Origin: a virus
Virus record (IMG/VR): IMGVR_UViG_3300025305_000142
Location: 1-23,783 of that record
Strand: one strand, 5' to 3'
Length of the DNA stretch: 23,783 nt
The notes below the pieces were generated by a model, which made no database searches, was not told the origin of the DNA, and saw only the letters and a list, made by a program, of their open reading frames with translations. Below are positions 1-23,023 of this stretch, piece by piece. The first letter of the stretch is position 1; the number at the start of each line of letters is the position of its first letter. Both the position numbers and the translations under genes were made by a program.

Positions 1-716
1 GCGCCAACTCTACCAGATTTATAATCAGCTATAGTGCTAGCGCGAGAAGAACCATATGGCATGCCTGACGGTCTATGCGCTGCAGCCATGCCGCCTGTAT
101 CGTCACGCACTGGCGGCGGATTCATAGCTCGTTGGCGTTCAGCTTCGGCTTCGTCTGGATCTCGGTACGCGCTTCCATCCAGCGCTGGATCTTCTTCATG
201 AAGAAGATCTGTCTCATCAAGATACTCATAAAGATCATTTTCATCCGTACTGAAGGCATTTCCGGGTTCATCGTCGCGTAAATAGAACGCTTTGTTACCC
301 AGCGCTTCGCCCGGGGGAACCCCAAGGCGTTTACGTGCCGCCTGGCTCTTCTTGGCTTTCTGCTGTGCAGCGTAACGTTCCATCTCAGCTCCACGTTGCT
401 GGTTCCGCTTCCACATTCTGTCCCTGTATTCTTGGCCGCCGGCGTCCGGATGTCGCTTAGCTTTCTCGGTACCAGCCCATTTTTGGCCAGTACCTATAGA
501 TTGCTGTGGTAGCTCCTTGCGGCGAGGCTCAAGGGCCTGCATGATACGTCCTGACAGGCCCTCAAACTCTAAGAGGTCGTTTTCATCCAAATCTTCTTCA
601 TCGAGATATTCATAAAGATCATTTTCATCCAATTCCATCTCATCAAGCTCTTCACCAAGGAAACTTTCTATTTCTTCTTTAATGATGCTTTTTAATTGTT
701 TCTTTGTAATATTCAT
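1..716 (-). CDS. Acidic protein with MKITK-type N-terminal peptide (C-terminus outside window)
   Basis: The reading frame is open from the ATG at 716 to the left edge, so the C-terminus is missing; 238 codons are visible. AGGA lies 9 bases before the start. Residues 1-15 (MNITKKQLKSIIKEE) match the N-termini of the next genes at 1509, 2210 and 3488, and contain I-K-E, the (I/L)-x-E form cut by T4-type prohead protease. Two acidic blocks around residues 29-37 and 157-165 share D-E-N-D-L-Y-E-Y-L-D-E, and 20 bases are identical at DNA level (227-246 and 611-630). The remainder is charged and Gln/Arg/Ala-rich with no recognised domain. I infer a protein packaged in or attached to the capsid; no enzymatic role is visible. 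Confidence 0.85.
   Translation of the reverse strand, partial: MNITKKQLKSIIKEEIESFLGEELDEMELDENDLYEYLDEEDLDENDLLEFEGLSGRIMQALEPRRKELPQQSIGTGQKWAGTEKAKRHPDAGGQEYRDRMWKRNQQRGAEMERYAAQQKAKKSQAARKRLGVPPGEALGNKAFYLRDDEPGNAFSTDENDLYEYLDETDLLHEEDPALDGSAYRDPDEAEAERQRAMNPPPVRDDTGGMAAAHRPSGMPYGSSRASTIADYKSGRVG
227..630. repeat. Direct repeat pair inside the acidic gene
   Basis: A 20-base sequence (cataaagatcattttcatcc) occurs at 227-246 and 611-630 in the same frame of the leftmost gene, encoding the repeated acidic block. It looks like an internal segmental duplication. Confidence 0.8.
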
Positions 717-733
717 ATATAAATTTCCTATAT

Positions 734-745
734 TAATAAATAGTA
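734..745 (-). promoter_or_regulatory. TACTAT box without -35 upstream of the leftmost gene
   Basis: The 12-mer TACTATTTATTA (minus strand) sits 18 bases before the start at 716. The same 12-mer occurs immediately upstream of the tmRNA (22191-22202). No TTGAC-like -35 is present 16-18 bases upstream, unlike the early-type promoters of the window. It may be a promoter of a different class; this is inference from two copies. Confidence 0.4.
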
Positions 746-760
746 TATGATTTTTCTATG

Positions 761-1204
761 TTAGCTGTTAATCCACATTTCAACCAAAGCCCTTCCAGCT
801 TCAGAAAAATCATGATATTCTGTTTTTAAAGTTATACGAGAATAAAGGTCCTCGTCATACTTAAATGATGGTTCAATTTTCCATTTACTACTGCTGTTTT
901 CTTTAATTACCCCGACGGATCGATCTGTTGCTGTTATTTCATATTCCCATAAACTAATTTTTTTATACTTAATCTTTTTGCTTTTACGTTGCTTTACTTC
1001 AAGTCGTTTAACTTTAAGTGCATCACTCACATCATCGATTTTATCTTCGTAATCCCACCAGGGATCAAAATATGTTCCATATTTTCGAAGCGGAGGTATA
1101 TTTTTTGGCAAATTCGCGATATTTGCTGGAAGATAAGGCATTGAACCACGATTTTTGGTTTTTGTGAGGTTCACTTTGTTCTTTGGTTTTTTATATTTTT
1201 GCAT
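761..1204 (-). CDS. Hypothetical basic protein
   Basis: 147 residues from the ATG at 1204. An upstream in-frame start at 1300 would bury a third of the preceding gene, so 1204 is preferred, although its nearest SD-like run (AGAGG) is 18 bases away. The N-terminus is Lys-rich (MQKYKKPKNKV), and the middle has another Lys/Arg cluster. The C-terminal half is a plain globular-looking segment ending in E-M-W-I-N-S. It follows the gene ending at 1219 with a 14-base gap. It lacks the MKITK peptide carried by its neighbours. No family recognised. Confidence 0.65.
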   Translation of the reverse strand: MQKYKKPKNKVNLTKTKNRGSMPYLPANIANLPKNIPPLRKYGTYFDPWWDYEDKIDDVSDALKVKRLEVKQRKSKKIKYKKISLWEYEITATDRSVGVIKENSSSKWKIEPSFKYDEDLYSRITLKTEYHDFSEAGRALVEMWINS

Positions 1205-1218
1205 GATATAACTAACTA

Positions 1219-1509
1219 TTAACCTCTCATGATAACATTTAATCTTCTCTGGACTGATGACGCCTGGGGGAACGCCTGTGCCAAAGTTTGTGCAATCCAC
1301 ATATTTATCTTAACTTTATTCCTGCCTCCACCACGGGCCGCTTCAGCCTGACCAATAATACTGTTTTTATCTTGTCGCGACATCATATTCAGACCCATAA
1401 CCAAATCTTTCAAATCTTCATATATATCATCATCTGAACGACGGGCTTCTTCCAACTTTCCAAGCTCTTCTTTAACAATTCGTTTAAGTTGAGATCTTGT
1501 TATATTCAT
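1219..1509 (-). CDS. Small protein with MKITK-type N-terminal peptide
   Basis: 96 residues beginning MNITRSQLKRIVKEELGKLEEA, the same amphipathic N-terminal signature as the genes at 716, 2210 and 3488. V-K-E/L-E-E stands where the others have I-K-E. The remainder has an acidic helix (SDDDIYEDLKDLVMGLNMM) and a C-terminal helix. No domain recognised. Only 14 bases separate it from the gene ending at 1524, so the two are probably co-transcribed. I infer a small virion or prohead-associated protein from the shared peptide. Confidence 0.75.
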   Translation of the reverse strand: MNITRSQLKRIVKEELGKLEEARRSDDDIYEDLKDLVMGLNMMSRQDKNSIIGQAEAARGGGRNKVKINMWIAQTLAQAFPQASSVQRRLNVIMRG

Positions 1510-1523
1510 TTTTTTATCTTCCT

Positions 1524-1757
1524 TTAAGCCATCATTGACACGTTTTTAACGTTAACACCAACGCCCATGAGAGCCCTAAATAAACTAATATAATTATCAG
1601 TCATATTTGGATTGGATTGACCCATAAGTTTTATGGCCTCAGTTAAAGAATCCATCATCTTTATAACTTCCTGTTGTTCTGGTGTAAAATCCTCACCATA
1701 CAGATCATCAACTTCTTCTTTAATAATTCGTTTAAGTTGTTGTTTTGTTATTTTCAT
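1524..1757 (-). CDS. Nested in-frame product with its own SD and MKITK peptide
   Basis: Internal ATG at 1757 in the frame of the 1524-2210 gene, preceded by GGAGGGTCAATCA. That is one of the strongest Shine-Dalgarno arrangements in the window. The product would be 77 residues: MKITKQQLKRIIKEE, then an acidic segment (VDDLYGEDFTPEQQE) and a helical C-terminus ending N-V-S-M-M-A. Because the peptide is N-terminal in every other carrier here, this start is likely used. Whether the longer fusion is also made cannot be seen. Confidence 0.65.
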   Translation of the reverse strand: MKITKQQLKRIIKEEVDDLYGEDFTPEQQEVIKMMDSLTEAIKLMGQSNPNMTDNYISLFRALMGVGVNVKNVSMMA

Positions 1758-2210
1758 TGATTGACCCTCCGCGATGGGTATATCCGTCGTTGGGTAGACT
1801 AGTCCACCTATCTTTGTCAGAAAATTTTCCATAGTCTTTTTATTTCTAGGGTGCACTCGCCCTTTTTCAAGAATATCCTGCAACCCATCTCTAAGCGCCA
1901 CCGCGTAATCGCACGCATACTTCGGTCTTTTCACAGAATCCATCTCGACTAACCACGGAAGATAAACCATGTTTCCTTCGTTATACCCTTCTGTTGCTTC
2001 TTTTCCAACGCACCATGGCTTCCACATGTTAACAAAATCTTTTAACAACCATCCCTCGTGATCACCGGGCTCTCGATATAAGCCGACGACGTGATTCTTA
2101 GCGAGGGTTTCTGGGGAGCAGTAGCCGTGTGAGCAGATCTCTTGCGCTTCTTTGAGAGATTTTATCTCTTCCTTAATAATCCGTTTAAGTTGTTGTTTTG
2201 TGATTTTCAT
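1524..2210 (-). CDS. Protein carrying the MKITK peptide twice (fused or nested genes)
   Basis: 228 residues from the ATG at 2210 (GGGAG 8 bases upstream). Residues 1-15 (MKITKQQLKRIIKEE) reappear identically at residues 152-166. The first module (about 150 residues) has Cys and Trp pairs and no recognised family; the second (77 residues) is helical. The DNA of the two peptide copies is near-identical (2172-2210 and 1719-1757, about three differences in 39). The second copy is preceded by GGAGGG six bases before its ATG, so it can start independently. The ORF therefore looks like two adjacent genes fused in frame by loss of a stop, or one gene making two products. Confidence 0.8.
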   Translation of the reverse strand: MKITKQQLKRIIKEEIKSLKEAQEICSHGYCSPETLAKNHVVGLYREPGDHEGWLLKDFVNMWKPWCVGKEATEGYNEGNMVYLPWLVEMDSVKRPKYACDYAVALRDGLQDILEKGRVHPRNKKTMENFLTKIGGLVYPTTDIPIAEGQSMKITKQQLKRIIKEEVDDLYGEDFTPEQQEVIKMMDSLTEAIKLMGQSNPNMTDNYISLFRALMGVGVNVKNVSMMA

Positions 2211-2310
2211 ACAGAATTCTCCCTTTCCATAGAGTAATTAGTTGCTTATCTTGAAGAACGCCCACCAAAATCCGGCAATTTTTTCCCCGAAATTTTTCTT
2301 AACAGTCAAT

Positions 2311-2535
2311 AAACGTTAACTTGTACTTTGTTCTAACGTTCCTATATTATTACTATGCGAATTAGTCGGAGAGCCAAAAAAGTAATTTCTTGGCGTTTTA
2401 TATCCATGACCTTGGCCACGTTAATTTGTTATCCATTCATAGGATCGATGACGAAATCTATTGGCCTAACGTTAATAATCAACGCCATTATGACGGTTGT
2501 ACATTATTACTTCGAGAAATGGTGGGAACGTTAAT
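2311..2535. repeat. AACGTTAA-type motif cluster in a gene-free stretch
   Basis: The 324 bases between 2211 and 2534 hold no credible gene; only ORFs of about 20 codons without SD were seen. Five copies of an ACGTTAA/AACGTT core lie at about 2313, 2335, 2418, 2469 and 2528, several with the palindrome AACGTT. Isolated copies occur at about 1549, 4300 and 11411. Function is unknown; binding sites for a regulator or a decayed gene are both possible. Confidence 0.5.
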
Positions 2536-3488
2536 TATCGGATTAGTTTTTCAAGTTCTTTCATTGAAATATCAAAATCGGGTGCATTCTTCTTCCGCGT
2601 CCTGCCCTCGTTTTTGGATGACACAGATCGATTTTCTGCGCGTGCTATTTCACATCGTCGACGCTGATCAATATCTTGTACTCCGGCACATGACGTATCG
2701 GTTTCATCCAACTCCATGCTTTCGCTTTTAGGAGGACATTTCATATCACCCGTTTGTACACATTTTGTCATTTTGCCGGTCTTGGTGTCATAAGTGCGCG
2801 TTTTCGTACCCACCACTGTTTCCGTACCAATTGGTTTACCTTCCTTCAAGGGAGGTGGCTCTTCCTTTGCAATTGACGTTGGGGGATTCATTGCAACCGC
2901 CTGAGCCAAGGCTGCTTTATCCTTGGCCAATTGTTCAGGTGTTGCTTTGCTAAGGAATTTTTCACGAGCTGCTTTAAATTTAGGTCGGTTTCTATCAATC
3001 CGCGCTTGAGGATCCTCCTGCCACTTATAACCTTTTCTATGCCGGCCAACCCAATCGCGCCTTGCATCACGTTGCGCCAAAGAAGCTTTGTATTCATCGG
3101 TTTCACGAAAGCTAGCATCTTTTCGTCCCATGCGGATGTTGTCCATATCTTTTCTGGTGAGGCGAGGCTTTTTAGTTTTGGGGTTAACTTGGATTTTTTT
3201 CCTGGCTTGAGCTGCAGCTGCTTGCGCATCTTCCGCAGCATTATCGAAATCAGCCTCTGCATCCATATACGACGTCCGCTCATCATCGGTAAATTGCGCC
3301 CAAGCGTCACTGGTCATTTTTCGCCCAGGGCGAAATTCGACGTCAATCTCACCACGTTCTCGCGCGCGAGCCCTACGTTCAGGTGAATCTTCATCGCTGC
3401 CCCATTCGCCTTCCATCCAGAGTTCATCCAAAACATTCTTAGTTTCTTCTTGGATGATTTTTTTAATATCCGACTTTGTAATTTTCAT
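2535..3488 (-). CDS. Charged protein with MKITK-type N-terminal peptide
   Basis: 317 residues; ATG at 3488 with GAGG 10 bases upstream. Residues 1-15 are MKITKSDIKKIIQEE, containing I-Q-E, the same signature as at 716, 1509 and 2210. The body is rich in Lys, Arg, Asp, Glu and Ala and is probably largely disordered or helical. It has an Ala-rich acidic stretch near residues 80-95 and a Cys-containing region (CVQTGDMKCPP, DTSCAGVQ) near 240-270. No catalytic domain is recognised. Composition and N-terminus suggest a capsid-internal or scaffold-like protein, as inference. Confidence 0.8.
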   Translation of the reverse strand: MKITKSDIKKIIQEETKNVLDELWMEGEWGSDEDSPERRARARERGEIDVEFRPGRKMTSDAWAQFTDDERTSYMDAEADFDNAAEDAQAAAAQARKKIQVNPKTKKPRLTRKDMDNIRMGRKDASFRETDEYKASLAQRDARRDWVGRHRKGYKWQEDPQARIDRNRPKFKAAREKFLSKATPEQLAKDKAALAQAVAMNPPTSIAKEEPPPLKEGKPIGTETVVGTKTRTYDTKTGKMTKCVQTGDMKCPPKSESMELDETDTSCAGVQDIDQRRRCEIARAENRSVSSKNEGRTRKKNAPDFDISMKELEKLIR

Positions 3489-10235: not shown

Positions 10236-10401
10236 TTTGGACCTCGACTAGTTGAAGTTGATAGGACATGAACGGGTAATATTTGCCGTCAAGCAATATC
10301 TTATAGCATGGCGTGAGCCCGATGAGATACGAAACCCCGGCAACCAAACCGATCGGATAACCATCGACCTTGCAAACTCTCACTAGGTCACCGATTTTCA
10401 C
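10222..10401 (-). CDS. KVGDLV-family beta-barrel-like protein
   Basis: 59 residues from a GTG at 10401, with GGAGG six bases upstream. Starts (V)KIGDLVRVCKVDGYPIGLV and has the central strand Y-K-I-L-L-D-G. The C-terminus (LVEVQNAKS) is a variant of the family's E-V-I end; it encodes the SD and overlaps the start of the next gene by 14 bases. The fold is inferred to be a small SH3/KOW-like barrel; ligand unknown. Confidence 0.75.
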   Translation of the reverse strand: MKIGDLVRVCKVDGYPIGLVAGVSYLIGLTPCYKILLDGKYYPFMSYQLQLVEVQNAKS

Positions 10402-10591
10402 TGATTACCTCCAAACAAAAATCAGCATGACGTGCGAGGTACCCGTTTTGACACTGAACGTGATAAGCCTGATGCTTCCAAGCACTCTCGCGAGGATCGA
10501 ACGGCAGCTTCTCGATGATTATTCCCATCGTGCCGTCTGGAGCGTGACGAGAGCCGTATCTAATTATTCTCACTAGGTCACCCACTTTCAC
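10388..10591 (-). CDS. KVGDLV-family beta-barrel-like protein
   Basis: 67 residues from a GTG at 10591 (GGAAG nearby upstream); a longer frame to 10627 lies inside the previous gene and is rejected. MKVGDLVRIIRYG, then G-T-M-G-I-I-I-E-K, a Cys/His-bearing insert (YHVQCQNGYLARHADFC) and the end LEVISENR. The last codons overlap the start of the next gene by 14 bases. Confidence 0.8.
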   Translation of the reverse strand: MKVGDLVRIIRYGSRHAPDGTMGIIIEKLPFDPRESAWKHQAYHVQCQNGYLARHADFCLEVISENR

Positions 10592-10745
10592 TAATGACTT
10601 CCAAAAGAGTACCAGAACAAGAACCAATCTCGCCAGTGTCTAAAATCATGAAACTGGGATACTTATAACCCCCAGATTCTTTAATCTCAATCACTAGCGC
10701 AATCCAGTTGTAGTCAATCCGTTTCACGAGGTCACCGGCTTTCAT
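10578..10745 (-). CDS. KVGDLV-family beta-barrel-like protein
   Basis: 55 residues from the ATG at 10745, with GGAG seven bases upstream. MKAGDLVKRIDYNWIALVIEI, then Y-P-S-F-M-I-L-D-T-G and the family end LLEVISESG. The final 14 bases also encode the start of the next gene. An upstream in-frame start at 10808 lies within the previous gene and lacks an SD. Confidence 0.8.
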   Translation of the reverse strand: MKAGDLVKRIDYNWIALVIEIKESGGYKYPSFMILDTGEIGSCSGTLLEVISESG

Positions 10746-10905
10746 TAACCAACTCCAACTCGCCCAGCGGAATCCATACTGGTTCTGAACATTCGGGAAT
10801 ATACGCAAGCACCGCAGGGTTGACGCTCTTCGGCGGCTTAGTTTTCAAAACAATCCCCAGCAATTTGCCGCGATCCTTCCATCTTACCAAATCACCGACT
10901 TGCAC
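10732..10905 (-). CDS. KVGDLV-family beta-barrel-like protein
   Basis: 57 residues from a GTG at 10905 (GGAGG six bases upstream). MQVGDLVRWKDRGKLLGIVL, a Pro-rich loop, then P-V-W-I-P-L-G and the end ELELVNESR. Starts inside the last codons of the gene ending at 10892, and its own end holds the start of the next gene. Confidence 0.8.
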   Translation of the reverse strand: MQVGDLVRWKDRGKLLGIVLKTKPPKSVNPAVLAYIPECSEPVWIPLGELELVNESR

Positions 10906-11101
10906 TTATAACCTCCAAGTCACGCGAAAGGCTCCGTATAGATCGCGCCCCATATTTAGGGTGTTCCGTCAGTTGAACAATAAAAATGGGCCAATTCATG
11001 TCATCGTCGTAAGGCGTATGACATTCTGTGATTAGGCCGATGGTGTTATTAGGAACACCAATTCGAGCCCTTGTAGTTTTTACTAGATCACCGGGTTGCA
11101 T
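10892..11101 (-). CDS. KVGDLV-family beta-barrel-like protein
   Basis: 69 residues from the ATG at 11101 (GAGG six bases upstream, inside the E-V codons of the gene before). MQPGDLVKTTRARIGVPNNT, then IGLITECHTP, W-P-I-F-I-V-Q-L and DLEVISASR. Chained by 14-base overlaps at both ends. Confidence 0.8.
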   Translation of the reverse strand: MQPGDLVKTTRARIGVPNNTIGLITECHTPYDDDMNWPIFIVQLTEHPKYGARSIRSLSRDLEVISASR

Positions 11102-11285
11102 TCAGAACCTCAAAGTCTCGTGGGCTTTCCCAAGTCATTGTTTCACCAATGTGCGCTGGTTTCGCTGGCCAACTGATTTTGTAACGGTAAACGCCGATGG
11201 CGACGCGTTCTACCGTGTGTATTAAACCCGTGCCTTCATAAGTGCTGGCATGGGGTTTATAAATAACTAAATCACCGACTTTCAT
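11088..11285 (-). CDS. KVGDLV-family beta-barrel-like protein
   Basis: 65 residues from the ATG at 11285 (AAGG six bases upstream). MKVGDLVIYKPHASTYEGTG, then L-I-H-T-V-E-R-V and Y-R-Y-K-I-S-W, ending DFEVLNATR. 14-base overlaps at both ends. Confidence 0.8.
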   Translation of the reverse strand: MKVGDLVIYKPHASTYEGTGLIHTVERVAIGVYRYKISWPAKPAHIGETMTWESPRDFEVLNATR

Positions 11286-12035: not shown

Positions 12036-13289
12036 TCACTTTGCAATTGCGATTACACGCTCGTTTGTCTTGAAGTATGGGCGGCGGGCACTTTCCGCGT
12101 CCGTCATCCACATGCGGGCACATTTGCTGGACTTAGGCTTAGGGGCGCACATATCCGTAAGGACGATGTGAGCATCAAATCTGCCAGCATTAACGTATTC
12201 GGTAGGAGCATTGAAACACGTTCCACCGTAGAGAACACGTTCACGTTTGCGGGTTTCACCCTTACGCCACTGATATACTTTGTCCTCGGCAACGCGCGTG
12301 TCAAAGGGAATGACCGTGAAGGTTGCGATCTCAGCCAACTTGTTAAGTTCGGAGTAAAACACCGCTAACATACTGTCAGACACCGAACCAGATTGATCGA
12401 TAGAAATGGCAATATTCGCTTGTCTACGGACTTTGCGGCCAGGATGGACGTAAGGGTAGCGTTTGTTGAGACGCTTCACTGTGGAGCGTTTCTCGGCCCT
12501 CTGAGAGCATTTGACGAAGTAACGTAGCACTTTGCGCCAGTCAAGCACCGGAGAAATCCGATCCATGATCTCTTTTCTCATCGATGAAGAAATGGACCCC
12601 CAAGAATTGACCTTCGATGCATCGTCAGCAGCCTGTTTAACAGCGTCGGTAAGGCGTTGCTTCGCGATCTCTTTTGTCGCAGTATCGCAGGCTTTTCCGC
12701 CCCATTGGCTATGGTCATCGAAAGAATCCATATCACTTAAAGATCCTTTAGAATCGCCCTCAGAATCCTCGCCAGAACCATCTTCTGGTTTTCCTTCTTT
12801 CTCTTTTTCTTCCTGCTCGGCCTTTTCTTTCAGCTTTGCGTAATAGTATTCAGTGCTTTGAAATTCTGGAAACTCCTCGAAATAGCCATGACCAGGAAAG
12901 CAGCCATTTTCAGGCAAGTTCTCTTTGCCAATGTGACAGTTGATAGAAAGATCAGCTGCGATATTGTACAACTTGAACAGGGCTTGCTTCTCAGGATCAA
13001 CTTGACCCTCAAAGATACCAGCCAGTTCATCAGGCAAGCGGCCAAGGATATGCTCCATCACAAGATGATAAAACTCATGTACAAGTACGCCGGAGCGCTG
13101 CTTATCACTCTCCAAGCCCTCAAAGAACTCAGGGTTATAAAGCAACTCAAAGAAACCCGTGTCAGGATTGATACGGACACCGGCAGTCGGGATGTTCTTA
13201 TCCTCAGTCTTATCGACGTTACGCGAAAGAGAAGCAAAGAAAGGCTCATCTTGAAGCAAGCGAAAGATATGATCGTTAAGGTTGAACAT
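12036..13289 (-). CDS. VWA-like protein with N-terminal zincin-type domain
   Basis: 417 residues; ATG at 13289 with GGGGAG five bases upstream. The N-terminal domain contains H-E-F-Y-H (residues 71-75) with a further E79, the zincin HExxH pattern of VWA-like/DUF2201-type proteins. An acidic Ser/Glu-rich linker spans about 155-195. The C-terminal domain has MIDAS-type residues: D-Q-S-G-S at 298-302, T357 in G-G-T, and D379 in V-L-T-D-M. In cellular relatives such proteins act as metal-binding partners of MoxR AAA+ ATPases in remodelling or maturing targets. The MoxR gene is directly upstream, and each has its own early-type promoter. The phage target is unknown. Confidence 0.88.
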   Translation of the reverse strand: MFNLNDHIFRLLQDEPFFASLSRNVDKTEDKNIPTAGVRINPDTGFFELLYNPEFFEGLESDKQRSGVLVHEFYHLVMEHILGRLPDELAGIFEGQVDPEKQALFKLYNIAADLSINCHIGKENLPENGCFPGHGYFEEFPEFQSTEYYYAKLKEKAEQEEKEKEGKPEDGSGEDSEGDSKGSLSDMDSFDDHSQWGGKACDTATKEIAKQRLTDAVKQAADDASKVNSWGSISSSMRKEIMDRISPVLDWRKVLRYFVKCSQRAEKRSTVKRLNKRYPYVHPGRKVRRQANIAISIDQSGSVSDSMLAVFYSELNKLAEIATFTVIPFDTRVAEDKVYQWRKGETRKRERVLYGGTCFNAPTEYVNAGRFDAHIVLTDMCAPKPKSSKCARMWMTDAESARRPYFKTNERVIAIAK

Positions 13290-13477: not shown

Positions 13478-14542
13478 CTATTCATTTTTTCCGGTGAGCA
13501 TAGTAACCATGCGAGTTGAAACTTTCGTACCATCTTCGGCCTTTGACTTGTGAAGCGCGATGACGTTCTCATTCACGCCTTTGCCAATCGACGTCCAGAG
13601 TTTCATTGCTGGCTCGGAAGGAAGACACACGAAGTAGTTAGCCAAGTTTTGGATCTGAGTCTCATCGAGAACCGCGGCAAAGGCATTGCTAGCTTCGATT
13701 TTCTCGATCAGCGCGCAATGCTCGTTGATGCCAAAGTTCGACGTCTTGTCGATCTTACCATCGTCGAGGATCATCTCAACCGTTACTTGACGCTCATAGT
13801 TTTGAACGAAGTCATTGAAAGCAACAGCAGCCTCGAAACCAACAAACGCAGTGGCAAGGTGGTAAATCGAAGACTTGTCCGTATGTTCGGAAAGAAAGTC
13901 AGCGGTTACGAGACAATCGTTGAAACGCTTCCAGGATCGGCGCGAAGGATAAACTTTGTTAGGCTCGAAATCAGTCTGATGCTCCAAGTGAGAACGATTC
14001 TGATTGATGAAGTCCCAAACAACGCCATCGACCTCGACCTTGGCCCAGTCGAGCCAATCCTCAATCGTCGGCTCGACGTCAAAGACCGTCCATCGATCAA
14101 GCTCAGCAGGGTCCATCTCGCCAACCTGATATTGCGAACCGTGGTCGCCACCGTTGATTGCAGCAACGATGACGGTATCGGGATGGAGGTGATTACCAAA
14201 CAGTTTGCGTGAATCTGTTAGCTCGAATAGACCCTGCCTCACTTCTGTGACGGCGCGATCGACCTCATCGAAAAAGAGGACAACACCACTGTCGCAAGCC
14301 GTCTGAAACCAATCAGGTGGACAAAATGAAGTAACGTCCCCATCAGTCTTGGGAAGACCGACCAGATCGCCTTCAGTCATTTGTGAAGCGCGGCGCTCGA
14401 TAACAGGCTTGCAAAGCAAACTTGCAAGTTGATAAACAACCTCGGATTTGCCGACACCATGTCGGCCACGAAGAAGAATTGGCTTGCGAACCGCCGCGAC
14501 GTGCGGGGCAACTTGATTAAATGTTTTGAAATCGATGGCCAT
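13478..14542 (-). CDS. MoxR-type AAA+ ATPase
   Basis: 354 residues; ATG at 14542 with AAGGAG about seven bases upstream. Walker A is G-R-H-G-V-G-K-S (26-33). Walker B is V-V-L-F-F-D-E-V-D (87-95). Sensor-1 Asn is in A-A-I-N (N130), and L-D-R-W (148-151) holds an arginine at the usual MoxR position. The M-T-E-G-D-L-V-G segment (55-62) is typical of MoxR proteins. The product should form a hexameric ATP-driven remodelling ring, with the VWA-like protein encoded just downstream as probable partner. Both use their own early-type promoters, implying expression during takeover rather than assembly (inference). Confidence 0.92.
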   Translation of the reverse strand: MAIDFKTFNQVAPHVAAVRKPILLRGRHGVGKSEVVYQLASLLCKPVIERRASQMTEGDLVGLPKTDGDVTSFCPPDWFQTACDSGVVLFFDEVDRAVTEVRQGLFELTDSRKLFGNHLHPDTVIVAAINGGDHGSQYQVGEMDPAELDRWTVFDVEPTIEDWLDWAKVEVDGVVWDFINQNRSHLEHQTDFEPNKVYPSRRSWKRFNDCLVTADFLSEHTDKSSIYHLATAFVGFEAAVAFNDFVQNYERQVTVEMILDDGKIDKTSNFGINEHCALIEKIEASNAFAAVLDETQIQNLANYFVCLPSEPAMKLWTSIGKGVNENVIALHKSKAEDGTKVSTRMVTMLTGKNE

Positions 14543-16242: not shown

Positions 16243-16402
16243 TGGGAAAAAACACAGGAAAGAATTCAATGTGATCATTCAAGTCTTTCTTTAATGATTC
16301 CAAGTTCTTGAACACGATGGCAGCGACCTCTTTATCCTCTTCGAGAAGGCGGGTGTGGGTGTCTTCCATGTATCCTATCAAAAATCGCAACAAGCTATCC
16401 AA
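16229..16402 (-). CDS. Small acidic helical protein
   Basis: 57 residues if begun at the TTG at 16402, which has GAGG six bases upstream and overlaps the previous stop by eight bases. An ATG at 16369 (MEDTHTRLLEEDKEVAAIVF) is the alternative. Helical acidic body (FKNLESLKKDLNDHIEFF) and a hydrophobic/acidic tail whose last codons lie in the promoter at 16215-16242. No family recognised. Confidence 0.6.
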   Translation of the reverse strand: MDSLLRFLIGYMEDTHTRLLEEDKEVAAIVFKNLESLKKDLNDHIEFFPVFFPIDDE

Positions 16403-16619
16403 TTGGAGCCTCGCTGATGACCTTGAGCATCTTTTGAGGCCACGTGTCCCTAACCTCTTCAATATTCAACCAAGTAACGATAGGCATTTGTGTAAGATCT
16501 TCCTTGTCGGTTACAATGCCGATAATGCCGGAAGGCCAATGCTCGTAGCCGCCATCAGGATCTGACGTCGGTGCGCGATCCAAAAGCTCAACCAAATCGC
16601 CAACTTTAGCTAGCTGCAT
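16395..16619 (-). CDS. KVGDLV-family beta-barrel-like protein
   Basis: 74 residues from the ATG at 16619 with GGAG seven bases upstream. MQLAKVGDLVELLDRAP has a short N-terminal extension. Then GIIGIVTDKED, M-P-I-V-T-W-L and the family end LKVISEAPIG. Its start lies in the last 14 bases of the gene before. Confidence 0.8.
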   Translation of the reverse strand: MQLAKVGDLVELLDRAPTSDPDGGYEHWPSGIIGIVTDKEDLTQMPIVTWLNIEEVRDTWPQKMLKVISEAPIG

Positions 16620-16779
16620 TTAGCAACTCCATACCCCACTCGCCAACAGTTTCCTGTGTTGGCGTGCGAAACTTGGCCCACCGAACTGTGACTACGGTAC
16701 TCTTCTTACATTCATATAAATCTGTGATTATTCCAACGTCATCATCGTGAACACATTTTACTAGGTCACCGACTTTCAT
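16606..16779 (-). CDS. KVGDLV-family beta-barrel-like protein
   Basis: 57 residues from the ATG at 16779. MKVGDLVKCVHDDDVGIITD, then V-V-T-V-R-W and the end MELLNAAS. Its start is inside the last codons (Y-E-S-R-stop) of the pyrophosphohydrolase-like gene; the SD (GGAAC) is weak. Its own last 14 bases encode the start of the next gene. Confidence 0.8.
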   Translation of the reverse strand: MKVGDLVKCVHDDDVGIITDLYECKKSTVVTVRWAKFRTPTQETVGEWGMELLNAAS

Positions 16780-17068
16780 ACTGTTCCAATATGATTCTAT
16801 CCTTGAATCCGCCTCGTTCTTTTCGCTTATTTTCTACAGCCAACTTTAAACGAGGCATCTTTATCTCGTGTAACTCGCAAATTGAAAGGAAAACTTCCCA
16901 CATATCCGCTGCCTCTTCGTAACACGGTGTATTAACAAATTCATCAAGCTCTTCGCGCATCTTTTCATATAAACGCGCTTTATATTCGTCATAGTTGGCA
17001 ACGTGATAAACACAAGCCCTCCCGTCCTTCTCGATGATAAGGGGAATAAAGTCTCTAACTAGCTTCAC
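16766..17068 (-). CDS. MazG/PRA-PH-like nucleotide pyrophosphohydrolase
   Basis: 100 residues from a GTG at 17068 with GAGG six bases upstream; this gives the family-typical start M-K-L-V-R-D-F-I-P, whereas the longer frame to 17125 lies inside the previous gene. The helical core carries E-E-L-D-E-F (residues 40-45) and E-E-A-A-D-M-W-E-V (51-59), matching the metal-binding ExxE...ExxD pattern of all-alpha NTP pyrophosphatases. The C-terminus has K-R-K-E-R-G-G-F. Likely hydrolyses non-canonical or excess (d)NTPs. It ends in ...Y-E-S-R because its last codons are also the start of the next KVGDLV gene, so it is embedded in that chain. Confidence 0.8.
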   Translation of the reverse strand: MKLVRDFIPLIIEKDGRACVYHVANYDEYKARLYEKMREELDEFVNTPCYEEAADMWEVFLSICELHEIKMPRLKLAVENKRKERGGFKDRIILEQYESR

Positions 17069-17237
17069 TAATGACCTCACAACCTCTTTCGACGTATTTC
17101 TTTGGAAGCCAATGTGGTTTTCCATCGGTGCATAAAACTAGGTAGGGTTCTTTTTTCCTGCGATCTACGATCTCAAGAATCATTCCAATGCCGTCCTCGG
17201 GCCAACGCAAATCTCTTATCAAATCGCCTATATTCAT
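17055..17237 (-). CDS. KVGDLV-family beta-barrel-like protein, probably leaderless
   Basis: 60 residues from the ATG at 17237: MNIGDLIRDLRWPEDGIGMI, then Y-L-V-L-C-T-D-G and GCEVISEAS. The ATG begins seven bases after the -10 of the promoter at 17244-17271, and no SD precedes it. A transcript from that promoter would therefore be leaderless. An upstream TTG frame lies within the promoter spacer. The last 14 bases contain the start of the pyrophosphohydrolase-like gene. Confidence 0.75.
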   Translation of the reverse strand: MNIGDLIRDLRWPEDGIGMILEIVDRRKKEPYLVLCTDGKPHWLPKKYVERGCEVISEAS

Positions 17238-17243
17238 ACTATT

Positions 17244-17271
17244 ATTATAGGCACCGTTTTTCAATGGTCAA
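17244..17271 (-). promoter_or_regulatory. Early-type promoter with consensus -10
   Basis: TTGACC (17266-17271), 16-base spacer ending GTGCC, TATAAT (17244-17249). The upstream gene ends S-V-D-H-stop through the -35 and spacer. Confidence 0.85.
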
Positions 17272-17461
17272 CGGACTGAGTTGTGCTTATCGACTCCAAT
17301 TCATAGTCTTTGAACCATTCATATAACAGTTCAAACCGGACTTTATACCAATAGAAGCCGTCATCATCCTCATATAATTCTAATACAATACCATAGACAT
17401 CTGTTGGATAACCGGAGTGTGCATAAAAAGGCCTTAATTTTACTACGTCACCGACATGCAC
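17261..17461 (-). CDS. KVGDLV-family beta-barrel-like protein
   Basis: 66 residues from a GTG at 17461 (GAGG six bases upstream, inside the previous gene's E-V codons). MHVGDVVKLRPFYAHSG, then V-Y-G-I-V-L-E-L, W-Y-K-V-R-F and YELESIS. Past the usual end it has seven extra residues (TTQSVDH) encoded by the promoter at 17244-17271. Confidence 0.8.
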   Translation of the reverse strand: MHVGDVVKLRPFYAHSGYPTDVYGIVLELYEDDDGFYWYKVRFELLYEWFKDYELESISTTQSVDH

Positions 17462-17636
17462 TGACGACCTCTAAATCAGTATGCTTGAATCTATATGAAA
17501 CGCCACCGAAATTTACATCAACACATCCCCACAACTCCTGTACGTGGACTTTGGTTATCAAACCAATTTTACTCTCATAAGGCAAACCTTTACGGGTTTT
17601 TCTTATAGACAACTTCGTTAAATCACCGACTTTCAT
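17448..17636 (-). CDS. KVGDLV-family beta-barrel-like protein
   Basis: 62 residues from the ATG at 17636. MKVGDLTKLSIRKTRKGLPY, then K-I-G-L-I-T-K-V, V-D-V-N-F-G-G and DLEVVSACR. Starts in the last 14 bases of the GIY-YIG gene, and its end holds the next start. Confidence 0.8.
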   Translation of the reverse strand: MKVGDLTKLSIRKTRKGLPYESKIGLITKVHVQELWGCVDVNFGGVSYRFKHTDLEVVSACR

Positions 17637-17880
17637 TGATAACCTTTTCCTTTTGTTTTCGTGTTAACTGCTTAAAATTATATTCGGCTATCTGTGCAGT
17701 CGATTGATTCTCAAAGTCCACGCAGTATACCAATTCCACTGGGCGGCGAGATCTCGTGTATCTCGAACCACGTTTGCTCGTGTTATGTTCATTCAGTCGC
17801 CTGGAAATGTCAGTGGTCACGCCGGTGTATAACGTGCCGTCGCTACATCGTAGGACATAAAGAAACCATTCTTTAACCAC
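17623..17880 (-). CDS. GIY-YIG domain protein (UPF0213/YhbQ-like)
   Basis: 85 residues from a GTG at 17880 with GAGG six bases upstream. The domain fills the protein: F-L-Y-V-L-R-C (6-12) and L-Y-T-G-V-T (17-22) replace the G-I-Y and Y-I-G strands, followed by R26-R27, H31 and a Tyr-rich basic segment. Size and sequence fit single-domain UPF0213 proteins and small GIY-YIG nucleases. No DNA-binding extension is present. It sits mid-chain among KVGDLV genes and ends V-I-N-E-S-R, the same overlapping junction as theirs. Confidence 0.88.
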   Translation of the reverse strand: MVKEWFLYVLRCSDGTLYTGVTTDISRRLNEHNTSKRGSRYTRSRRPVELVYCVDFENQSTAQIAEYNFKQLTRKQKEKVINESR

Positions 17881-18076
17881 TGACTACCTCAACCCAGCCT
17901 TTGTCTATGGCCACAAATTCGCACCTCAATGCTTTCTTATCGCCAGACCACAGAATATCGATGCAATTTTCCGTCTCGGTGATTGGGTCACGCGACCATC
18001 TCACAGTATACGGTTCGCTAGCGACGACACCATAGCTGCCATCGTGATTATCTTTTACAAGGTCACCGATTTTCAT
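17873..18076 (-). CDS. KVGDLV-family beta-barrel-like protein
   Basis: 67 residues from the ATG at 18076 with GGAG six bases upstream. MKIGDLVKDNHDGSYGVVAS, a strand with C-I-D-I-L-W-S-G and VEVVSG. Residues 36-57 resemble the gene at 18597-18812 (CIDVLWFGSEK), so these two are close paralogs. Its end contains the GTG of the GIY-YIG gene. Confidence 0.8.
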   Translation of the reverse strand: MKIGDLVKDNHDGSYGVVASEPYTVRWSRDPITETENCIDILWSGDKKALRCEFVAIDKGWVEVVSG

Positions 18077-18091
18077 TATTTTCTCCGTTTT

Positions 18092-18187
18092 TTATACGGC
18101 TAGGCCATGGGCCAGGATAGAAATCACCCCAGCAAACACTAAAATTCTAAACAGGTTGTCAGCCTCTTTTGCTATGTTATTTTTCAT
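18092..18187 (-). CDS. 31-residue membrane peptide
   Basis: ATG at 18187 with AGGAG six bases upstream. A charged start (MKNNIAKEADNLFR) is followed by a hydrophobic segment (ILVFAGVISILAHGLAV) to the end, suggesting one membrane helix. First gene after the promoter at 18207-18234, with a leader of about 13 nt. Confidence 0.6.
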   Translation of the reverse strand: MKNNIAKEADNLFRILVFAGVISILAHGLAV

Positions 18188-18206
18188 TTTTTACTCCTAC
18201 ATGCAT

Positions 18207-18234
18207 AATATAGTGACTATTTTTACTAAGTCAA
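18207..18234 (-). promoter_or_regulatory. Sigma70-type promoter with stop codon in -35
   Basis: TTGACT (18229-18234), 16-base spacer lacking the GTKCY end, TATATT (18207-18212). The TGA stop of the upstream gene (18231-18233) is part of the -35. Confidence 0.75.
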
Positions 18235-18431
18235 ACAGAATTTATTATTTCTGCTTCCCAATATGGCTCATCAAAAGTCACGTGCCCCTCGTCAGTATAT
18301 ATGTTAAATATCCGATATGAATCTGGGACGATGGTCTTATATTTAATACCAGTGACTATGCCTAATGCCGAATAAGTCACAGGGAAACGCTCATCAGGAT
18401 CATAAACCCTAATTAAATCACCGACTTTCAC
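18231..18431 (-). CDS. KVGDLV-family beta-barrel-like protein
   Basis: 66 residues from a GTG at 18431 (GAGG six bases upstream). MKVGDLIRVYDPDERFPVTY, then A-L-G-I-V-T-G-I, R-I-F-N-I-Y-T-D-E-G and E-A-E-I-I-N-S-V. The stop lies in the -35 of the next promoter. Confidence 0.8.
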   Translation of the reverse strand: MKVGDLIRVYDPDERFPVTYSALGIVTGIKYKTIVPDSYRIFNIYTDEGHVTFDEPYWEAEIINSV

Positions 18432-18600
18432 TTATGACCTCGATTGTTTCGTCTGGCCGCCATGAAATATATGGATTTCTACCCAGCTTCATTCCCTCAG
18501 ATGGTTCGAACCAGTATACCTCCCACATTGAATCAATAGTTTCCGATAAAACAATCCCAGTTATTTCTGAGTATCTGTCTTTTACAAGATTTCCTATCAT
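18418..18600 (-). CDS. KVGDLV-family beta-barrel-like protein, divergent start
   Basis: 60 residues from the ATG at 18600, overlapping the previous stop (ATGA). MIGNLVKDRYSEITGIVLSE, then W-E-V-Y-W-F-E and IEVISESR. The start is shortened relative to MKVGDLVK, and the junction is a simple ATGA rather than the 14-base overlap. Its own end has the full overlap. Confidence 0.8.
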   Translation of the reverse strand: MIGNLVKDRYSEITGIVLSETIDSMWEVYWFEPSEGMKLGRNPYISWRPDETIEVISESR

Positions 18601-18812
18601 ATTACAACCTCTACAGAACCATTTTCAATAGCTGAATAATCAACACGGCTGGGCTTTTCGCTACCAAACCACAAAACATCGATGCATCGTGCATTAAACT
18701 CCCAGCCTTGACCGGAACTACTAATATCATAGGGTAGGCGCGCAATGACGCCATATTCAGGCGGCGATGTAGCTAACAAGCCATCGGTTTTTACCAAATC
18801 ACCCACCTTCAC
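18597..18812 (-). CDS. KVGDLV-family beta-barrel-like protein
   Basis: 71 residues from a GTG at 18812 with GGAGG six bases upstream. MKVGDLVKTDGLLATSPPEY, then G-V-I-A-R-L, C-I-D-V-L-W-F-G and SVEVVI. Close paralog of the gene 17873-18076. Confidence 0.8.
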   Translation of the reverse strand: MKVGDLVKTDGLLATSPPEYGVIARLPYDISSSGQGWEFNARCIDVLWFGSEKPSRVDYSAIENGSVEVVI

Positions 18813-19047
18813 TTATAACCTCCAGGCCATGGCCAAATGTTGTTCCCGCGTAAAGTTTATGTGTGAACCATTGTTTATGTGTGAACCATTGTACGAACCA
18901 GCGCGGTTGGGCGGTACCGGGTGAAGTCGGCGGGACACCTGGCAATTCTTCTACTACTAGCCCAATAGTTCCATTAGGAAGGCCACCCATGGACCGAGCT
19001 TCTCTTACTATAACCAGATCGCCGACTTTTAGTTTATTCTTCGCCAT
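18799..19047 (-). CDS. KVGDLV-family protein with an internal tandem repeat
   Basis: 82 residues from the ATG at 19047, inside the last codons of the HD gene; no strong SD. MAKNKLKVGDLVIVREARS, then GTIGLVVEELPG, and LEVISEGG. Residues Q-W-F-T-H-K are repeated in tandem (18855-18890). It heads the second KVGDLV chain. Confidence 0.8.
   Translation of the reverse strand: MAKNKLKVGDLVIVREARSMGGLPNGTIGLVVEELPGVPPTSPGTAQPRWFVQWFTHKQWFTHKLYAGTTFGHGLEVISEGG
18855..18890. repeat. 18-bp tandem duplication in coding sequence
   Basis: GTTTATGTGTGAACCATT occurs twice back to back, adding six residues in frame. The copies are identical, so the duplication is probably recent. Confidence 0.95.
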
Positions 19048-21954: not shown

Positions 21955-22189
21955 TGGAGGCGTGCGGTATCGAACCGCAGTCCTAAATGCTTTAATATTT
22001 TGCGATATACAAGGTTTAAAAATTGTTAACCCGGTTTTGGGTAACAAGGAAACCGGAAACCCCGCCATAGCTTACGCAGCCATTGGTAGTGCTACATCGT
22101 TTGCAGCTATTGTTTCGAGCCTTATAATGTTTGCTCATACATCCTTGCACAAAATATCTCCCTCATCTAGTCGAAGCCATTTCGCCCCC
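21955..22189 (-). ncRNA. ssrA: Compact phage tmRNA
   Basis: 235 nt. Acceptor stem GGGGGCG (22183-22189) pairs with CGCCTCC (21956-21962), including G3-U70, the alanine identity pair, with discriminator A at 21955 and no encoded CCA. T-arm TGCGG-TTCGATA-CCGCA and a TLD of the type GGGGGCGAAATGGCTTCGAC are as in other tmRNAs. Helix P2 pairs ATATTTTG (22150-22157) with CAAAATAT (21995-22002), and TGCAAGG (22143-22149) with CCTTGTA (22008-22014). Pseudoknot 1 (22117-22142: ATGT/ACAT crossed with GAGC/GCTC) precedes the tag. Pseudoknot 2 (22023-22056: CCGGTTT/AAACCGG crossed with TTGTTA/TAACAA) follows it. tmRNA with SmpB rescues stalled ribosomes and tags the nascent chain. Host tmRNAs are usually about 350-400 nt with more pseudoknots, so this is a reduced form. 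Confidence 0.95.
22072..22104 (-). other. tmRNA tag reading frame
   Basis: GCA resume codon at 22102-22104 through TAA at 22072-22074 encodes A-N-D-V-A-L-P-M-A-A-stop. Upstream ACAATAGCT resembles the conserved resume-setting bases of other tmRNAs. The first residues match A-N-D of E. coli (ANDENYALAA); the end is M-A-A rather than L-A-A. Confidence 0.9.
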
Positions 22190-22386: not shown

Positions 22387-22415
22387 ATAATAGCATTTTT
22401 ATGGTTCCTTGTCAA
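22387..22415 (-). promoter_or_regulatory. Near-consensus sigma70 promoter upstream of the tmRNA
   Basis: TTGACA (22410-22415), 17-base spacer, TATTAT (22387-22392): the closest to consensus in the window. The -35 encodes V-D of the upstream gene's last codons, and that gene stops in the spacer. Predicted start about 22380. Confidence 0.8.
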
Positions 22416-22767
22416 CCTCTTCTTTAAAATAATTGTCAACCTTATGTTTTTTTATCAAAAGATGGAGGCTTTGTTCATGAAGTCCTAAAAATCTTGCTGC
22501 TTCACGTTTAGATCGTGTAGCAGATACTGCATATTTTAAAACTGCGTCTTTTACGATGGTGCGTAAAGAATACCAAATGGGCAATCCATACATCTTCCCC
22601 CTTAAGCCAAATTTTGAAGCTAATTCAAGCTTCAGGCCAATAACCTCTTCTAACGAAAGGTTATTAAAAAGGATTTCAAACTCTTCGCTTGATTTCCCCT
22701 CTTTTCTTAATTTGTTGGAAAGTGAATAATAACGGTTGGTCCCGCTATTCTTGTTCTTCTTGATCAT
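22399..22767 (-). CDS. Fis-type helix-turn-helix protein
   Basis: 122 residues from the ATG at 22767, with GGGAG seven bases upstream. Central helical region (LSLEEVIGLKLELASKFGLR, G-K-M-Y-G-L-P-I-W-Y-S). The C-terminal HTH at about 87-115 (KREAARFLGLHEQSLHLLIK) has the A-A-x-x-L-G-L...L-x-x-x-L/I-K-K pattern of Fis-family helices. Similar marine-phage proteins are familiar to me without assigned function; a DNA-binding regulator is likely. It overlaps the previous stop by 23 bases, and its last codons contain the promoter at 22387-22415. Confidence 0.78.
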   Translation of the reverse strand: MIKKNKNSGTNRYYSLSNKLRKEGKSSEEFEILFNNLSLEEVIGLKLELASKFGLRGKMYGLPIWYSLRTIVKDAVLKYAVSATRSKREAARFLGLHEQSLHLLIKKHKVDNYFKEEVDKEP

Positions 22768-23023
22768 TAGCAACTCCCAATATACCATAACCTGCTATAT
22801 CTTTGAAAGGACTTTCTCCAAAAGCCTCTTTCTGTGTTGCTATTCTAAATAATTTGTCTACAATTCGTGTGACCGCCAGCATGTCTTTATATTGCTTGGG
22901 TTCAATTCCGTCTGGATATAATACTTTTAATATTTCTTCTGATTTTTCGAATGCGCTACCGTATGCAATATTCTTTTCGTCTACAAGTTTGCCAATATCC
23001 GTACCAATTTTTTCAAATTTCAT
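22745..23023 (-). CDS. Probable nucleotide-modification-associated domain 1 (DUF1599-like) protein
   Basis: 92 residues from the ATG at 23023 with GAGG five bases upstream; the longer frame to 23164 lies inside the previous gene. All-alpha domain with N-I-A-Y-G-S-A-F, L-Y-P-D-G-I-E-P-K-Q-Y, V-D-K-L-F-R-I-A and E-S-P-F-K-D-I-A-G-Y-G-I-L. This is the pattern I know from Nmad1/DUF1599 proteins of phages, which are proposed to act around modified nucleotides. Catalysis is not demonstrated for the family, and the assignment is from memory of the motif. Confidence 0.75.
   Translation of the reverse strand: MKFEKIGTDIGKLVDEKNIAYGSAFEKSEEILKVLYPDGIEPKQYKDMLAVTRIVDKLFRIATQKEAFGESPFKDIAGYGILGVANDQEEQE

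Follow-up and report, generated by a model that had tools for sequence, protein, structure and literature searches.

The bacterial one-piece ssrA RNA (Rfam family RF00023) combines a TLD with a G3-U70 pair, P2, PK1, a resume codon GCA, a tag ending in AA, a stop codon in P5, and a T-arm. Reduced tmRNAs with fewer pseudoknots occur in plastids and cyanobacteria, and as two-piece molecules in alpha-proteobacteria; plastid and two-piece tmRNAs lack PK2-4 or have them in reduced form (PMC3968760, PMC1168896). Known tmRNAs range from 230 to 400 nt, and PK2-4 are dispensable for tagging in E. coli (PMC3968760); PK3/4 are missing from plastid tmRNAs, and a 2005 survey put the shortest tmRNA with a reading frame at 250 nt (PMC1168896). 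A tmRNA is present in 402 of 18,146 phage genomes, about 2%, with two-piece forms mainly in aquatic phages (PMC9004378). Lytic phages such as mycobacteriophage cluster C, Bacillus phage G, and Melnitz carry a complete ssrA (PMC4131195, PMC9004378); in Melnitz the gene is two-piece and has a glutamine riboswitch. Phage DS6A provides a precedent for a TLD-only tmRNA, and RNA of this type strongly inhibits tmRNA according to the portion of PMC4131195 that cites Mao 2009. A 2025 tmRNA database lists nine standard-order genes without a tag frame, as well as group I introns and intervening sequences that add extra DNA, sometimes a homing endonuclease gene, to tmRNA genes (PMC11915505). Phage tmRNAs and reduced sets of pseudoknots are, overall, already known.

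The window in this study, i.e. the whole analysed stretch of 23,783 bases from an IMG/VR virus record, contains a single tmRNA gene of 235 nt on the minus strand at 21955-22189, which was found independently by ARAGORN and by Rfam RF00023. The covariance-model search, proposed as a check by an earlier sequence-only reading of the same DNA, returned 89.8 bits (E 5.5e-34), well above the gathering cut-off of 47. The motif GGGGGYGNNNTGGNTTCGAC occurs once in the window and in none of 100 shuffles, and the fold z-score of the RNA against shuffles is -4.05. The features of the locus, with the evidence for each, are as follows.

21955-22189, minus strand: tmRNA gene, mature part without CCA (ARAGORN, Rfam RF00023)
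22183-22189, minus strand: 5' strand of the acceptor stem P1, GGGGGCG, with G3 of G3-U70 (100% paired; C6-G changed to U6-A in relatives)
22170-22182, minus strand: D-loop-like segment AAAUGGCUUCGAC (Rfam match, motif scan)
22143-22169, minus strand: 5' strand of P2 (covariation alignment)
22116-22142, minus strand: PK1, stems AUGU/ACAU and UGAGC/GCUCG (both 100% paired, n=13, each with compensatory changes)
22072-22104, minus strand: tag frame GCA...TAA, ANDVALPMAA*, 10 codons, resume codon GCA (ARAGORN; comparison with relatives L279 and L271)
22065-22086, minus strand: P5 hairpin containing the tag stop codon (covariation alignment)
22023-22062, minus strand: second hairpin CCGGUUU/AAACCGG with conserved loop CCUUGUUACCC; pseudoknot pairing uncertain (alignment, pairing counts, fold)
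22016-22029, minus strand: insertion site of a nested gene of sister phages, empty in the window (comparison with sister phages)
21984-22014, minus strand: 3' strand of P2 (covariation alignment)
21963-21979, minus strand: T-arm UGCGG-UUCGAUA-CCGCA (changes on both sides in three of five pairs)
21956-21962, minus strand: 3' strand of P1, CGCCUCC, with the discriminator A at 21955 (alignment of compact relatives)
22387-22415, minus strand: sigma-70-like promoter candidate TTGACA-17-TATTAT, 11/12 (consensus match only, about 200 nt upstream of the tmRNA)
22399-22788, minus strand: upstream neighbour gene, weakly Fis-like HTH, marking the orthologous tmRNA slot (conserved in relatives)

The elements are arranged as P1, the D-loop-like UGGCUUCGAC, P2, PK1, tag, P5, a further hairpin, the 3' strand of P2, and the T-arm. 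This order is the standard one and the RF00023 match is full-length (1-374), so the gene is not a permuted, two-piece tmRNA; the tag reading frame sets it apart from the DS6A type, which lacks a full mRNA-like part. As in RF00023, the acceptor stem has 7 bp with G3-U70, the T-arm is present, PK1 sits upstream of the tag, and a long P2 closes the ring in place of an anticodon arm. Of the core elements previously listed for this locus by eye, in a reading that gave no strand, the acceptor stem with G3-U70, TLD, P2, PK1, 10-codon tag, and T-arm were recovered within the 235 nt. Unlike bacterial one-piece ssrA of about 350 nt, the window gene has no PK3 or PK4, its second pseudoknot is reduced, and its CCA is not encoded, AUUA following the discriminator A. 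Unlike the other reduced tmRNAs, it is in one piece, resides in a phage, and lies at or just under the 250 nt mark. An att-site remnant was also considered and rejected because the tag and the two halves of the TLD are all intact.

To assess the helices, 13 compact tmRNAs were aligned with the inserted protein gene of some relatives taken out. Changes on both sides were seen in 13 pairs and 33 cells, compared with 9.1 in shuffles, none of 500 of which reached as high; 89% of cells were paired in the true register compared with 40-50% when the strands were slid. Covariation supports P1, P2, both stems of PK1, P5, and the T-stem individually, although these counts support rather than prove the structure since the shuffles ignore the relatedness of the sequences. 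One alternative is a tmRNA of host or phage origin in decay, its pseudoknots being lost by drift, which would agree with a length below that of a typical tmRNA, the poor conservation of the second pseudoknot, and the odd T-loop in sisters L278 and L280. However, across the compact subclade the tag is conserved and P1, P2, PK1, P5, and the T-stem all show compensatory changes; covariation thus disfavours decay, which we consider highly improbable.

Two H-type pseudoknots had been drawn around the tag in the sequence-only reading. PK1 stands, being pairable in 13 of 13 sequences with compensatory changes, whereas the second appears only partly supported. Its hairpin CCGGUUU/AAACCGG covaries in part among the 13 compact relatives. 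The downstream stem UUGUUA/UAACAA, by contrast, forms in the window and L279 but fails in the rest of the family, with just 54% of cells paired, so the pseudoknot as drawn is not conserved. An upstream alternative, GGGU:ACCC (GGGU:AYYC), is pairable in 13/13 with C/U changes only, but its loop lengths are unfavourable. For the window sequence, the MFE fold favours a further option, a simple hairpin formed by the S2 strands. Overall, one hairpin is supported downstream of the tag, and pseudoknot pairing there, a usual but non-essential feature of tmRNA, is not conserved. It had further been argued that such a minimal form could reveal which parts suffice for trans-translation. As a natural minimal tmRNA with PK1, tag, P5, and one hairpin, the gene does allow a test of which ring parts are needed; however, it was already known from other tmRNAs that PK2-4 can be dispensed with or missing (PMC3968760, PMC1168896), which makes the argument weaker than first put.

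The tag of L279 is identical to that of the window (ANDVALPMAA) with three synonymous differences, and that of L271 (ANDNVALPMAA) shows synonymous differences and one extra codon, a clean in-frame indel. Every compact tmRNA tag ends in LAA or MAA. Between the closest relatives, the tag codons show synonymous substitutions and a single clean codon deletion but no other change, so the frame is under selection; this conservation is the best evidence that it is translated, and the selection on it argues for a working tmRNA in the window. Tags such as VDTKLGKDCYSKLNEL, called by ARAGORN in the tmRNAs with an inserted gene, are artefacts of the insertion, and the true tag there is ANDNVALTLAA.

Relatives of the window in IMG/VR (contigs numbered L) were retrieved with its VWA-like ORF at 12036-13289 (two contigs) and with its MoxR-type ATPase ORF at 13478-14542 (eighty contigs, several of 160-190 kb). 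The MoxR-type ATPase has just distant matches in cultured-phage databases, and BLAST of the window tmRNA against 50,697 phage records gave no match. A tmRNA above the Rfam cut-off was found in 17 of 50 relative contigs, which bears out the earlier proposal of a phage-encoded compact tmRNA in this virus contig. The description of phage tmRNAs as rare is right for phages overall (PMC9004378) but not for this lineage. The compact window tmRNA belongs to a tmRNA gene that is common in a marine phage lineage of about 160-190 kb. No SmpB gene was detected in 20 relative contigs, compared with detection in 10 of 10 bacterial controls, the virus records being fragments; if the records are complete in this respect, the window RNA would have to use host SmpB. 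In a scan of prokaryote genomes, none carried the commonest tag context of the lineage.

The neighbour gene at 22399-22788 adjoins the tmRNA in relatives too, and an alignment-based scan with this gene yielded 80 loci. The content of the slot takes four forms, and some loci are without tmRNA. Most relatives have (i) full-length tmRNAs, 305-440 nt long, whose tags resemble ANDNVEFDYALAA. Form (ii) is the compact tmRNA of 235-253 nt, found in the window and in L271, L272, L273, L277, L279, L289, L291, L295, L297, and L298. Form (iii) is a compact tmRNA with an inserted protein gene, 463-529 nt in all, and form (iv) is a TLD-only RNA of about 80 nt in L102, L123, L199, L218, L224, and L228. On the neighbour-gene tree, form (iv) loci cluster together beside L087, which carries the full-length form, and their single origin is weakly supported. 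A spacer scan (160-190 nt) of viral contigs returned mostly chance tRNA/ORF pairs; clear compact tmRNAs of the lineage were only L264, L268, and L269, and L241, L242, L248, L255, and L267 were longer tmRNAs caught from inside. With four forms in one slot, the question of why phages carry tmRNA, i.e. to help, replace, or block that of the host, is open to direct comparison.

To our knowledge, TLD-only tmRNA genes are otherwise represented by phage DS6A and a few database entries. A pattern scan of viral contigs gave at least 120 contigs with TLD-only matches (L116-L235), or with L102 at least 121 matches; of these, at least 116 have a 7-bp acceptor stem with G3-U70, and at least 89 are distinct. 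These genes are about 63-95 nt long, often with a CCGCACGCGG inner hairpin. At least 74 of these viral loci also fit a tighter pattern, which matched only seven times in prokaryote genomes totalling 257 Gb. The cultured Streptomyces phages LuckySocke, GiJojo, and pSt2308 carry similar sequences that lack a tmRNA annotation. In a search of mainly open-access papers, we found no report of a TLD-only form at the orthologous slot.

The sequence-only reading had suggested that the tmRNA could replace that of the host or compete with it during infection. The TLD-only RNAs of the cousin phages resemble that of DS6A and have no tag reading frame, and they would fit competition with host tmRNA in those phages. 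The window RNA might itself mainly titrate host SmpB or occupy stalled ribosomes, blunting host trans-translation with tagging as a secondary activity; the cousin RNAs in the same slot speak for this, and DS6A-like RNA is a strong inhibitor of tmRNA in the cited portion of PMC4131195. A decoy, however, would need neither the full tag frame, with its synonymous-only change, nor PK1 or P5, all of which the window retains. We therefore regard this explanation as rather unlikely for the window.

At least 17 sister contigs (L274, L275, L276, L278, L280-L288, L290, L292, L293, and L359) carry an ORF of 63-69 codons nested in the tmRNA gene, e.g. at 1622-2099 in L274, 6049-6527 in L284, and around 444-650 in L359. 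The ORF lies between the second hairpin and the 3' strand of P2, its stop codon about 5 nt ahead of P2, and is preceded by a strong Shine-Dalgarno sequence (AAAGGAGGACAT-ATG in most). The surrounding tmRNA retains P1, P2, PK1, tag, and T-arm, and reaches 79-90 bits where scored. The nested protein forms two subfamilies, about 50% identical, with the frame kept and dN/dS of 0.03-0.28; judging from these ratios, the gene is under purifying selection. Its structure model is a two-helix hairpin (pLDDT 84), and no significant match was found in PHROGs, Pfam, or the PDB. Free-standing homologues with 28-58% identity occur in other phages, several with a CACACA-AGGAG-like leader, indicating that the tmRNA acquired a type of phage gene that elsewhere stands alone. 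The insertion is polymorphic: the empty L273 and the filled L274 have an identical neighbour protein, and L289 (empty) and L293 (filled) share about 90% identical DNA on both flanks; neither L277 (a contig of 156 kb) nor L295 (94 kb), both empty, has a copy of the nested gene elsewhere in the contig. The nested gene is well supported at the DNA level. In contrast to group I introns, the insert is a small gene of a free-standing type with its own Shine-Dalgarno sequence, located in the pseudoknot ring rather than the T-loop, and no intron signature was seen. The tmRNA genes of L286 and L288 contain a perfect TTGACA-18-TATAAT promoter ahead of the nested ORF, just upstream of 5543. In two nested forms, L278 (2865-3339) and L280 (2322-2797), the T-loop is AGUCGGUG instead of UUCGANN, and the T-stem covaries (GCGGG/CCCGC, GAGGG/CCCUC).

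A recurrent cargo gene at one common site in at least 17 contigs, its low dN/dS, and its presence or absence between otherwise close pairs would agree with a compact tmRNA that persists mainly as a carrier or regulatory platform, of which the window would be the empty version. The gene-free forms, however, keep the same tmRNA features, and nothing points to the cargo as the reason for retaining the tmRNA; this explanation has very little probability in our view. A broader proposal, which we put forward tentatively and hold to be possible rather than probable, is that the tmRNA gene of this lineage is a modular platform: with an independently initiated protein gene in the ring that is empty in the window, the RNA of the sisters would be at once tRNA, tag messenger, and putative ordinary messenger, and the slot of the cousins would hold a TLD-only inhibitor of host trans-translation. 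A tmRNA gene that houses a protein gene would represent a new way for structured RNA and messenger to overlap; no published report of such nesting was found in our search of mainly open-access papers.

The window RNA is most probably a working compact one-piece tmRNA of a large marine tailed phage, using host SmpB. This reading draws on the Rfam and ARAGORN calls, covariation, the kept tag frame, and the same slot in dozens of relatives; in addition, relatives carry 305-440 nt tmRNAs, no SmpB was detected in 20 relative contigs, and PK2-4 are unneeded for E. coli tagging (PMC3968760). It is weakened by the missing adjacent TATAAT, a promoter candidate about 200 nt off, and the lack of a match to the commonest tag context of the lineage in the scan of prokaryote genomes. 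A TATAAT box lies directly upstream of most compact sister tmRNAs, and the window has none; promoter matches like the candidate at 22387-22415 number 10 in the region, compared with 6.7 expected. A proposed course of action can be described as follows. The tmRNA would be made during infection, charged with alanine via G3-U70, and bound by host SmpB and EF-Tu, as the phage lineage appears to bring no SmpB. It would then enter ribosomes stalled on broken mRNA, where ANDVALPMAA would be added to the stalled protein and the ribosome freed at the stop codon in P5, presumably to the benefit of the phage. The compact form may have originated from the resident full-size tmRNA of the lineage as PK3-PK4 were lost and PK2 became simpler, and the freed ring segment may tolerate change, up to a complete small protein gene in the sisters.

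Elsewhere in the window, about 12 small ORFs of 60-80 aa, mostly tandem and overlapping, lie on the minus strand at 10388-11285 and 16395-19047 and share 'MKVGDLVK...EVIS'; by eye, they belong to one expanded family of small proteins, probably beta-barrels. Another small minus-strand ORF at 17623-17880 resembles, by eye, a GIY-YIG nuclease domain. At 3-3488, also on the minus strand, several proteins start with M[NK]ITK.QLK.I[IV]KEE, which occurs twice in the ORF at 1524-2210.
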